Positions 217 to 23,545 of a stretch of 39,316 bases of DNA are shown piece after piece (the first letter of the stretch is position 1; every line of letters begins with the position of its first letter). Made by a program: the position numbers and the translations under genes. Source of the DNA: Spirogloea muscicola (taxonomy: Eukaryota; Streptophyta; Zygnematophyceae; Spirogloeales; Spirogloeaceae). The stretch covers positions 979,645 through 1,018,960 of the forward strand of contig WELB01000008.1 of the NCBI GenBank assembly GCA_009602725.1, in the 5' to 3' direction. The notes below the pieces were generated by a model. It was not told the DNA's origin, ran no database searches, and worked only from the letters and a program-made list of their open reading frames with translations.

Positions 217-3200
217 ATGGAGTCCGGCTCCAGCCGGGCTGCCAGGCGCTCCGCCATGCTGGCGCAGCACCTTGCCCAGCAGCAGCGCTCCCCCTCGCCG
301 TCATCGCAGCTCGAGGTGGCGCAGTGCCTCAACTACGTCTCCCCCGAGGAAGCGGCAGGTGCGCGTTGCTGGCCGAGGTCTCAGGCAGGACCACCCCTCG
401 TTCACGACATGCTCCACCTTCTCCAAGTTGACGGGGCAGCAGAGGCTTTCTTTCTGCAGTAGTTTCGCTTTCACCTATCGCGCCACTCTCACCTGCTGTT
501 GTTAGTGCTGAATGGACAGACTTTATTGTTGAAAGTGACTGGCGTGCTGCACATGCTCAAGCATCTGACTGCTGCTGGAGCCCTTGATTCTGGCCCCAGG
601 GTCTCCGAGCTTTGACCCGAGGCAGCTCCAGAAACTCTTGGATGCACACAACATGGAGACAAGGGCTGAGATGTATGAGCTTTTCAAGGACAACAAGGTC
701 TTCTGGCCCAACAAGGACGCCAAGGTACCCAATCAGATGCGGAGTTGTTGCCCGTTGACACTGTCAATTGGTTAGTACATGTGATGACTGCTTGTATATG
801 AGCAGCAAACTGCGTGGGACCGCAAAGTCGAACGACCTTGCTGTGCAGATAGGTCCTGCTACAGCTCCAGTAAGGGGTGGGCTTGACATGCTTGCCTGGT
901 ATACTCAGATTGGAGGGCAACTCTACACGGCAATGGACTACAATACCTCTAAGGAGGATCAGAGGAATGCCACGTTCGATCGCATCCTCTTCCTCCGGGA
1001 TCGTGGCCACTTCAAGGTGAAGGCCTGCTGTCAACCGTGTTGCTCATTCAACCTGCAACTGGCCAGGCCTTGGGGCAGAAACTCATACCTCCATAGAAAC
1101 GTGTCAACGAAGCGCCCCCGGACAGACCTCTCCCTCTTTGCTTGTGCTGATGAGGGTGGTGATGCAAATCAACCTGCAGGGGTGGTTGACCAGTGATGAT
1201 CCTAAAGAGATAGGAAAGAAGGTTGCAATGCACGAGGCGCTGGGCGTGTATGACCACTCCATAGGTGTCAAACTCGGCGTGCACATCCACCTCTGGTCAG
1301 TACGCAGAGCGTCATCTCAAGCAGACCCCTAGCATCCATTGCCTTGCAGGAGTGGCTCACCAACGATGATCATGATGCTGTCTTGAGAAAGGCGGCAATG
1401 TTTGAGGCTGTATCTGTCTACGATCACTCCATGGGAATTAAGCTCGGTGTTCACATTCACTTGTGGTGAGTCTTGCTATAGTGTGTAGGATGAGAGACCA
1501 AGTCATAGCTGCACAAGGCCACTGCTGTAGTTGTCCAACTACTAAGGGAAAGGGCACAGAGCTCGACTGTGCTGTAGGTGTCCAATGTATGCCCCAGCTG
1601 GTCTGTATTGAGCATGTAGAGCCAATGTTGTTGCAGGGGAGGTGCTGTTAAGTACCTGGGGACAAAGAGGCACCACGACAAGTGGTTGAAAAGGACTGAG
1701 GATTATGATGTCGCCGGATGCTTTGCTTTGACCGCTTGGTCATGGGAGCAATGTGAGAAGAGCACGCCTTGCTAGCTCCACTGACATCTTTGCTGCACGA
1801 TCTTCAGAAGACGGCACTTCACTTGGCATGTCTTTATTTTCCAGAATCAGTAAAAAAGTGATTGCTACTTATTGCTGTGCGTAGCAACTCCAGGACCGCC
1901 ATGAGTCCCAGCCTGTAGCAATGGTTCCATACGCTTCCAGTAGTGATGTATGATAAGCTTGAGTACTGATTTTTTGCAGGTGAGAGGAATTGAGACTGAA
2001 GCGACTTATGACACCGGCACTCAGGAATTTGTAGTTAACACGCCCTGTGAGACTGCTCAGAAGTATTGGATTGGTGGAGCGGCTCAGGCAAGTGTTCAAA
2101 CCTCACCTTCCCACTCACATGATGAGTCAGGGGGGTTAGGGAGGTGGGGAGGGGGGGAGTGGGTTGGTGTGTTTTGGTCCTAATCCACTGTGCAATCAGG
2201 CATGGTGTCCTTGACTTGAACCAATTAGACTTGCCGAGCGTGGATAGCTGGCACTTCGTCTCCACGCTTCAGCTTCCATACAGATACAGAGCAGCATGAC
2301 TGCCGCTGAAATCTTGACAAACATTCTCCTGCTCACTTGACCTACAGCACGCAAATATGACCGTCTGCTTTGCACAACTGCACATTGAGGGCAAGAACCA
2401 GGGCGTTCATGCGTTTGTTGTGCCCTTGCGGGACAACCAAGGGCAGCCAATGCCCGGTATCCGCATAGCTGACTGTGGCCACAAGATTGGTCTGAACGGG
2501 GTCGATAATGGTCGCATCTGGTGAGCACTTGCGCCCCTGGCTACATTGCTTCATTAGTGCGACATCAGAAGCAAGGCTGTTGGCTTGGCAGCTGTACCTT
2601 AGGAGCAGTCTGGCTTGTGAGTAGTTTTCTGCATTGTGTGTCCTCTCGGCTGTTGTTGACGACAAGCAGTGGCCTGTCTACATGCACAGCATATCTTGTT
2701 GTGACTGCCTCAGGTTTGTTGTGTTTTGTGCAGGTTTGACCATGTACGCATTCCTCGGGAGGCTTTGCTCAACAGGGTCGCAGATGTGAGTCCCGTGGGA
2801 AAGTACGAGAGTGCGATCAAGGATCCTGATCAGGTGCATCATTGCTACATTCCTAGCTCAGTATATCAGCTCTCTTTAGCAGCACCGTCTAGCACAGGAC
2901 GCTCCTCTTGAAAGGAATGCCCAAGTCACAATACTGGCAATTGCAAGCACCAGGGAAGAGAGAGTAGATTTTCAAGTTGGTGCAGTTCACCTTTGCCACC
3001 AGTTAATGTTCATAGAGGATGTAATGGCAAAGGTGCTACTGTATAGGAGTATTATCACTGTGTGGACTTACTTTGCGTATTCGTATGACATTAACAGAGA
3101 TTTGCAGCACTCATGGCCCCCTTGACAAGTGGCCGTGTAACAATCGCTATAAGTGCCATCAACCAGTGCAAGGTGCAAGCCCATGACTCTCTTGATCTGA

Positions 3201-5666
3201 GCTTATGTACATAAGAAGTTTTGTGCAGGCTTCCTGTGCATGACACTTTTGCATGTGGATCTTACAGTCTGTTCCGAATTGACAGATTGGGCTTGCAACT
3301 GCCCTCCGCTATTCCCTGTCTCGGCGTGCTTTTGCTCTCAAGCCTGATGCTCCTGAGGAGCTCCTCCTTGACTACCCTAGCCACCAGCGACGGCTTCTGC
3401 CGCTCTTAGCAAAGACGTAAGTTGAATGCGAGCCTGGGTTCTTACTTGCTGCTCTTTGGGCTTTAGCACTCAATGTTATTAGCATTTGAAAGCATGTTAT
3501 GGTGGTCCTCCATCAGTATGCTACCTTCATGACATGTAAGCTCTTCTGGCCTTCTTTCAGGTATGCCATGAACTTCGCAAACAACAGTATGAAACTGTTG
3601 TATATAAGGAGACAACCTTCTGATGCCAAGGTTATCCACGTTCAGTCAAGTGGATACAAGGCCATGTTCTCGTGGCACATGCTCCGGACACTTCAGGTGA
3701 AAGGCTGAATCTTTGGCTTGACTGCTAAAGGATACCCATTGGGTGTTATGCCGCGTCTTCTTTTACCCTGGGTAGGGCTACTGTTGTGCATGTTTGGATC
3801 TTACGATGTCCTAAGCTTGCCGATAAATGCTATAAAACAGGAATGTCGTGAAGCATGTGGGGGAATGGGGATTGCTTCCAACAATCGTATTGGACAGTTG
3901 AAAGCTGAGCATGACGTCATGTCTACCTTTGAGGGCGACAACAATGTGCTCATGCAGCAGGTCCTTCGCTCTTCTGGACCACTCTTTAATCACACAATTA
4001 GCAACTAGGGACTCATTTGTCAGCTTCTGGTTTCTGATATTTGTGGTTTTTGTCAGTTTCCCATTGGTGGTCACAATTGCCCTGCTGCTGTCATTTTGGA
4101 TGCGATCAAGTCTCCTTCCATACGTTCAGTGTCACTGCTCTATCGAAGGACAAAAGTGGCACAAGTGGAAGACTTTTGGGGATCTACAGTAGAAGTTTCA
4201 TGTTTTCAGGCCTGGCATTGTAGAGTCCTTGTCATGCCAATTGAGCTGCCTATTTAACAGCCTTACCATGTTGCAGGTCAGCAAGGCAATGCTTGGTGAT
4301 TATTTCGTAGCCAAGAAGGCTCGCAAGCCCATTGCGGGGCTTGGCATGGAGCACATGAATGGTCCTCGGCCTCAGATACCTGCTTCACTGGGCAGCTCCC
4401 AGCTGCGTGACCCGGAGTTGCAGGTACGGGTGCTGCAGATCTGTGTCTCACAGAATTTGCCACAGCTCAAGAAGACTTTGTAACATCACTATCTATCTGT
4501 TGCCTCCCAGCGTGATCAACCCTTGCAAGTCTTCGTCCATGTCCATATTACGAAGCCAACCTGAAGCATCTGAAAGATTTTGTGGTGCGATCTGTGCATT
4601 GTGCACTAATGGACCCCACTGTTGTGCAGCTTGTCTTATTCCAATTGAGAGAGAGAGATCTGCTGGAGCGCCTGGCTGGCGACATATCTCAGCGGCTGGG
4701 CAGGGGCACTGCCATGGTTGATGCTTTTAATGAGGTCAGGGTCATTATTTTCCTCCCAGACTTATGGTTGGCGTGACATTGGTTGTCATGAGTGGAGTGA
4801 GTCCTTCTCGTTTCTCTGATGGCCCACTTTACCTATTATTCAACCTTACAGGCACCTACAACTCAGGCAGGGGGCACTTACAAATTGACTTCTGGTGCTG
4901 CAGAGCTACCAACTTGCTACGGACCTTGGGAAAGCCCATGCAGAGCGGGAGGTGCTGGAGGCATGTAGTGCAGTTGTGAAGGCTCAACGTCCTGGCCCTT
5001 TGAAGGTACCTCTTCTGGCTGCAGCTGGCAAGCAGCAGAAGCTGCCCTTTGGTGTCCTGGATATGAGAAGGCTTCTGAGCGTAGCAAAGTGCTGCTCGTG
5101 CGGGTGTTATTACTTGATGCGGCAGTTGCCAGCATTCACCAGCTGCATTGACAATGCTGATATTCGTGTTAACTTTACCTTCTGCCTTGCAGGACGTCCT
5201 CGAGAACCTGCGGACATTGTATGCATTGGTCACAGTAGACGAGGACGCAGTTTTCTTGAGGTAAATGGAGAAAGAACCTGCAAGCAAGCATATGCTCTTT
5301 ACTACATCTTGCTACTTGCAAACACATGCAACGTTGTCTGTAAGTTTTGTTGTGAGTTTGCTGCCTCTTTGACATCCAACCAACCTGCTGATAAAGAACT
5401 TCTCATGTAACTTCAGATATGCGTACATTATGGCGGACCAAGCACAAGCCGTGCACCGGGAGGTGGCTGCTCTTTGCAATGATGTACGGCCGCACACATT
5501 TGGGCTGGTGGAGGCCTTTGGCCTGCCCCCTCACATGCTTGGTCCCATCGCCTTCGACTGGGTGGATTATAACAGCTGGCACAACACCCGTGAGGCTGCT
5601 GCAAGCGAGCAGCGCCACATGGCCAAGAACGTGAATGGCCACTCTGTTGCCGCATACGCTTCATGA
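217..5666 (+). CDS. ACX3: Peroxisomal acyl-CoA oxidase, ACX3 type (medium chain)
   Basis: Flavoenzyme that makes the first double bond in peroxisomal beta-oxidation and passes electrons to oxygen. Exons: 217-358, 600-724, 909-1016, then 1180-1295 or 1350-1465, 1637-1752, 1980-2087, 2348-2520, 2734-2833, 3098-3172, 3286-3416, 3561-3696, 3841-3960, 4277-4423, 4630-4734, 4904-5005, 5193-5260, 5417-5666. Phases join throughout except for one 2-nt slip near 1734. About 707 residues, against about 675 for Arabidopsis ACX3, which it follows almost segment by segment ([45 protein letters not shown]). The catalytic Glu is expected in TFEGDN (exon ending 3960). The N-terminus has RSAMLAQHL, a PTS2-like peroxisomal signal with Ser where Leu/Ile/Val is usual. 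The C-terminus ends AYAS, with no PTS1. The intron at 2088 has a GC donor. The start is the first in-frame ATG, after a GC-rich leader. Confidence 0.93.
1180..1295 (+). other. ACX3: ACX3 alternative exon, version A
   Basis: This 116-nt exon is bounded by CTGCAG|GGG and CTCTG|GTCAGT. It reads from GWLTSDD to VKLGVHIHL and leaves two bases (TG) that complete Trp with the next exon. It covers the conserved YDHS segment of the ACX3 N-terminal alpha-helical domain. Its residues match version B at about 24 of 38 positions. Either version joins in frame between 1016 and 1637. Confidence 0.82.
1350..1465 (+). other. ACX3: ACX3 alternative exon, version B
   Basis: This second 116-nt copy starts 54 nt after version A and is bounded by TTGCAG|GAG and TTGTG|GTGAGT. 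It reads from EWLTNDD to IKLGVHIHL. Joining A to B shifts the frame and meets TGA within 12 codons. Skipping both meets TAA in the fifth codon of the following exon. Only one of the two can therefore be used per mRNA. The LRK residues recall Arabidopsis ACX3, so B may be the ancestral version. Confidence 0.82.
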
Positions 5667-23473: not shown

Positions 23474-23545
23474 TCAAGACATCTTCCGTATGCACCTGGC
23501 TGACTTTCGCAGCCGCTCTACTAATGTCAGCAGCCGCCGCCTTCA
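23474..23545 (-). repeat. Dispersed repeat family, copy A
   Basis: Shares with copies B and C the core GGCTG(A/G)CTTTC(G)CAGCCGCTCT on plus. On minus it reads MKAAAADISRAAAKVSQ and then GTGCAT, which could be a splice donor. GC-rich surroundings, no identified gene. Confidence 0.65.

Follow-up and report, generated by a model that had tools for sequence, protein, structure and literature searches.

An ACX3-like acyl-CoA oxidase gene of the alga Spirogloea muscicola carries two adjacent, homologous exons of 116 nt, hereafter A and B, which code for one and the same segment of the protein, as the members of a mutually exclusive pair do. By comparing three genomic copies, we consider it likely that A and B are a real and functional pair of this kind, and we infer from the sequence both that their use is exclusive and that each of them is used. 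In what follows, the window is the whole stretch of 39,316 nt that was analysed, and positions are counted from its first letter.

Two homologous exons encode the same segment of an acyl-CoA oxidase

The acyl-CoA oxidase gene lies on the + strand at the start of the window, within its first 5.7 kb. The 286-nt stretch that spans A and B is found at three places in the genome, on C8 (the window), C272 and C6, and the features of the hand-built gene model are as follows.

217..5665, + strand: ACX3-like acyl-CoA oxidase gene, 17 coding positions of which one is duplicated, from E1 (217-358) to E17 (5417-5665)
909..1016, + strand: E3, constant exon upstream of the pair, 108 nt, in phase 0 at its end (...GHFK)
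1180..1295, + strand: E4A, alternative exon A, 116 nt, 39 residues, open in all three copies
1350..1465, + strand: E4B, alternative exon B, 116 nt, 39 residues, open in all three copies
1637..1752, + strand: E5, constant exon downstream of the pair, 116 nt in the window and 118 nt in C272 and C6
2088-2093, + strand: donor GCAAGT of the GC-AG intron after E6, present in all three copies

Apart from this GC-AG intron, all introns of the model are GT-AG. That the gene codes for an acyl-CoA oxidase, as the initial annotation had proposed, is backed by the protein translated from the spliced C6 copy, in which PF22924 (ACOX_C_alpha1), PF01756 (ACOX) and PF02770 (Acyl-CoA_dh_M) all scored over the Pfam cut-off and for which the best PDB match was 5ys9, “Acyl-coenzyme A oxidase 3” (E 1.2e-94), an enzyme that we take to be from Yarrowia. 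The gene itself is presumably of the ACX3 type of plants, which fits the 5ys9 match. Near the N-terminus, the peptide RSAMLAQHL (window 247-273) resembles the PTS2 peroxisome signal motif, with a non-canonical S at position 2 and with its final L replaced by F in the C6 copy. Elsewhere in the genome, light-harvesting genes are represented by 10 PF00504 matches at E 1e-20 or better, while none of 14 prokaryote controls had any, which supports a phototrophic host.

Both A and B start in phase 0, and their last two bases open a codon whose third base comes from E5. In the window, they share 75 of 116 nucleotides (65%) and 25 of 39 residues (64%), and in C272 and in C6 they share 24 of 39 residues. 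These values agree with the identity of about 63% given in the initial annotation, which also had the coordinates, splice dinucleotides and frames of the two exons right. When the bases of B were shuffled and compared in register with A, none of 100,000 shuffles reached 75 identities (maximum 49), so that the likeness between the exons is not due to chance. By scanning the window for similar open peptides of at least 25 residues lying at most 800 nt apart, we found that A and B form its strongest tandem pair (score 168), followed by their own antisense (84) and then by the next unrelated pair (70). This weaker pair of similar peptides lies on the + strand at 23485 and 23708 (SVCTWLTFAAALLMSAAAAFI / SVCTWLALTAALLSSAAPRFL; score 70).

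The residues that differ between A and B are unevenly spread. In the window copy 14 of 39 differ, with 12 of these 14 among the first 22, and across copies the number of differences is 14-15 of 39, the pattern YDHS-x-G-x-K-x-GVHIHLW being nearly fixed. The segment encoded by the alternative exon precedes the middle domain (191-300 by Pfam), in keeping with the earlier placement of the varying segment in the N-terminal domain.

The reading frame penalizes the use of both exons or of neither. Joining A to B in the window copy leads to a stop at codon 176, the 12th codon wholly within B, and skipping both brings a stop in the 5th codon of E5 (codon 130); the corresponding stops in C272 and C6 are at codons 175 and 129. 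Hence, the TGA within 12 codons and the TAA five codons into the next exon that had been noticed in the first place are both confirmed. The further claim that only one of the two exons gives protein holds in C272 and C6, which encode 706 residues with either A or B, but not in the window copy, where a stop at codon 207 intervenes.

This stop results from the absence, near 1733/1734 in E5 of the window copy, of two bases that are present in both C272 and C6, so that neither isoform is full-length as assembled, whether A or B is used. By counting the changes along each lineage, we found 7 nonsynonymous for 36 synonymous ones in the window lineage, compared to 20:29 and 20:33 in the two others, so that amino-acid changes are fewest, in number and in proportion, in the window lineage. 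For this reason we rejected the idea that the window copy is an old pseudogene. Since the window lineage is the most constrained, the loss of the two bases is either very recent or an assembly error.

Both exons are under selection in three genomic copies

The three copies do not look scattered. The window at 14-16 kb matches C272 and C6 in the corresponding place and orientation, and at 30-32 kb it matches only C6, indicating homeologous blocks at least across the first 16 kb. ACX2-like genes (C40, C77 and C94) and several chaperonin genes are likewise found in twos or threes. Together, these observations suggest a triplicated or hybrid genome whose introns are about 15% diverged.

A and B are open and flanked by GT/AG sites in all three copies. 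Leaving out the A-B intron and trimming intron ends, we measured a divergence between copies of 14.8-15.6% in introns and of 4.6-5.0% in the other exons. The pairwise differences were 1, 2 and 1 of 116 for A, with binomial probabilities under the intron rate of 6.5e-8, 2e-6 and 1.7e-7, and 2, 6 and 6 of 116 for B (7.3e-7, 1.0e-3 and 9.5e-4). When A is compared with B, pS reaches saturation (0.83-0.85 across copies) whereas dN is 0.27-0.31, which argues that both peptides are under selection. Thus, the low divergence of each exon between copies and the comparison of dN with pS between A and B both point to constraint at the protein level. Given the saturation between A and B and the retention of both exons in three copies, the duplication predates the separation of the copies, and both peptides have been selected since.

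The silent sites of A behave in a particular way. None of its 39 codons varies synonymously among copies, compared to 88 of 619 codons in E2, E3 and E5-E17 (P 0.0025), and not one of 582 windows of 38 codons elsewhere lacks synonymous variation. Such an invariance would fit the presence of splicing signals inside the exon. The A-B intron is also unusually similar between the window and C272 (1 of 54 positions differs, P 0.0012), and the comparisons with C6 are not unusual (4 and 5 of 53, P 0.09 and 0.18). Because this intron is nearly identical in the window and in C272, some of the likeness between these two copies might be owed to local gene conversion.

The intron between A and B is probably too short to be spliced

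The intron that separates the two exons stands out by its size:

1296..1349, + strand: A-B intron, 54 nt in the window, 54 nt in C272 and 53 nt in C6

The other 16 introns of the window copy measure 113-316 nt; when the three copies are taken together, 113 nt is also the lower limit among 48 such introns. Elsewhere in this genome, 39 introns of chaperonin genes (PF00118), whose lengths we estimated from neighbouring matches, all measure at least 93 nt. For this estimate, 78 of 108 rows of profile matches were used, most rows with internal stops being left out, and neighbouring pairs were kept when their profile coordinates were at most 9 positions apart. One of the rows left out, a read-through on C267, contains a GC-AG intron of 93 nt, which leaves the minimum unchanged.

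In human splicing, about 50 nt are required between donor and branch site, and assembly on one test RNA was lost when the distance was 35 nt (PMC6692369). Within the A-B intron, our best candidate by sequence for a branch-point-like A is at 1319/1320, which puts it about 24 nt away from the donor. With 54, 54 and 53 nt against at least 113 and at least 93 nt, the intron has the size expected for the short-intron (steric) type of exclusion, and by the 50-nt rule, which is a human one, it would presumably be unspliceable in the alga. We therefore propose that A and B exclude each other by the shortness of this intron, with the frame lock as a backstop. The intron, which was absent from the initial annotation, is probably the main enforcement of exclusivity. 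By contrast, the docking/selector mechanism is unsupported, as no intron-intron helix of at least 9 pairs was conserved in all three copies among the three introns.

Next, we scored the splice donors with a simple matrix built from 42 constitutive donors, whose own scores range from 5.83 to 11.05:

1296..1301, + strand: donor of A, GTCAGT, identical in all three copies, score 5.86
1466..1471, + strand: donor of B, GTGAGT (GTGATT in C272), scores 6.77 in the window, 4.44 in C272 and 3.44 in C6

The donor of A outscores just 2 of the 42 constitutive donors, and the donor of B in C272 and C6 falls below all 42, suggesting that B may be little used in these two copies. The GTGATT found in C272 in place of GTGAGT may lower the use of B there, and offers a natural experiment on copy-specific exon choice.

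Alternative explanations

Given the weak donor, one may ask whether the duplication has left a decaying relic, most likely B, with A alone in use. Besides the scores of 4.44 and 3.44, below the constitutive minimum of 5.83, this explanation can draw on the greater variation of B between copies (up to 6 of 116 positions, compared to 2 for A). Yet B has stayed open in the three copies, its highest divergence (6/116, or 5.2%) is close to that of the other exons and far under that of the introns, and A and B combine a low dN with a saturated pS, so that we regard a relic as unlikely. It is very unlikely, in turn, that B (or A) serves as a poison exon, that is, that double inclusion shifts the frame of the mRNA, nonsense-mediated decay (NMD) lowers the level of the enzyme and the protein made with the second exon is incidental. 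Early stops upon double inclusion and double skipping in all three copies would suit such a role, but a poison exon does not need the protein-level constraint seen on both exons, and the 54-nt intron disfavours the very joining of A to B on which it would depend.

A last explanation, which we find scarcely credible, is that both exons are used non-exclusively through a donor located 4 nt downstream of that of A. A GT at 1300-1301, conserved as GT in all three copies, would extend A to 120 nt and bring it in frame with B, adding about 40 residues to the protein. This donor scores -4.68 in the window and in C272 and -8.14 in C6, far too low against the constitutive 5.83-11.05, and the intron left would be just 50 nt long in the window; we thus rejected in-frame double inclusion. 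A functional, mutually exclusive pair is the reading that we retain.

Proposed mechanism

We propose that one exon of an ACX3-like gene was duplicated in tandem before the three copies separated, and that E3 would since be spliced to either A or B and then to E5. Joining of A to B would be blocked mainly by the 53-54-nt intron, too short to accommodate donor and branch point together. Transcripts with both exons or with neither would be frame-shifted, would reach a stop codon after at most 12 or 5 codons, respectively, and would presumably be degraded by NMD. The two remaining mRNAs would yield proteins of the same length, distinguished by 14-15 of the 39 residues that the exon encodes, on the N-terminal side of the middle domain. 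By analogy with vertebrate ACOX1, the exon switch most likely changes the preference for acyl-CoA chain length or type, an effect on substrates that the initial annotation had also suggested.

Comparison with other acyl-CoA oxidases and other exon pairs

Within the genome, we found no sign of the duplication in the acyl-CoA oxidase genes on C40, C8 and C35. In the gene on C40 (L006), which we label ACX2-like, the segment is held in one exon, and no second copy was found in the following intron of about 590 nt. For the genes on C8 and C35 that we label ACX1-like, no similarity to A or B had an E-value below 1.7, and in the genes on C77 and C94 the stretch expected to hold the segment reads N.

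Vertebrates offer the closest parallel. Their ACOX1 gene has a mutually exclusive exon 3a/3b (PMC11178532, PMC12318918), which is conserved from zebrafish to human (PMC11178532), and ACOX1 exon 3 is entered among tandem exon pairs in a table of PMC5224494. According to PMC11178532, recombinant human ACOX1a has its peak on C10-CoA and a nearly 10-fold higher activity on DC12-CoA, and ACOX1b has its peak on C16-CoA and is alone in being measurably active on C24-CoA. In another account, the activity and tissue distribution of the two isoforms are described as relatively similar and their substrate specificity as unclear (PMC10864527). The idea of exclusive exons is therefore already known for this enzyme family. 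Among the matches listed in our literature search, no such exon pair was found in a plant or algal acyl-CoA oxidase, in line with the initial annotation, which had missed the vertebrate precedent.

Like ACOX1, the algal gene codes for an acyl-CoA oxidase and would use mutually exclusive exons to make isoforms of equal size. Unlike ACOX1, it belongs to another branch of the family, given that an acyl-CoA oxidase 3 is its closest match in the PDB, and its alternative exon is 116 nt long. The end of the algal exon aligns to about residue 107 of 1is2, presumably the rat enzyme, and the alternative exon of mammalian ACOX1 covers about residues 90-142. On these approximate positions the two segments overlap without appearing to share their boundaries, which makes independent origins probable. 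The boundaries of the mammalian exon are not visible by comparing the PDB chains 1is2 and 7q84, which are nearly identical over residues 102-205.

Similar arrangements have been reported in unrelated genes. In the green alga Volvox carteri, exons 4 and 5 of cyn23 are mutually exclusive, measure 106 nt each and are both used, as reported from RT-PCR (PMC4378016). The two cases have in common a green alga and equal-length exons not divisible by 3, with the use of the exons in cyn23 established by RT-PCR, but cyn23 is a cyclophilin-related gene and not a metabolic oxidase. In Caenorhabditis elegans, the mutually exclusive exons 6a and 6e of coq-2, of 134 nt each, are reported to decide between two pathway products (PMC7434440); here too we find two equal exons whose length is not divisible by 3, although coq-2 codes for an animal polyprenyltransferase. 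Finally, alpha-tropomyosin is the case of steric exclusion, with a donor too near the next branch point (cited in PMC6692369 and PMC7969005). The exclusion that we propose would rest likewise on the proximity of donor and putative branch point, except that in the algal gene the whole intron is short (53-54 nt).

Significance

Mutually exclusive tandem exons being already known, the algal pair is a new and apparently independent case. Reasoning from ACOX1, we tentatively suggest that vertebrates and this alga may each, independently, have evolved an exchangeable N-terminal exon that switches the acyl-chain preference, and that exon duplication at this place could be a repeated route to the substrate range of beta-oxidation; we hold this idea as possible rather than probable. 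The worked examples that we met of exclusive exons altering the substrate or product of an enzyme, ACOX1 and coq-2, are both from animals. An algal case in beta-oxidation that overlaps the site used in vertebrate ACOX1 would amount to convergence, and would be directly testable with two purified isoforms. In addition, an intron of 53-54 nt kept in three diverged copies allows the steric rule for mutually exclusive splicing to be examined in a simple natural setting outside animals. If both exons are used, a single fat-burning gene would give this alga two forms of the enzyme, and the choice of exon may offer a natural handle on the lipids that it burns.
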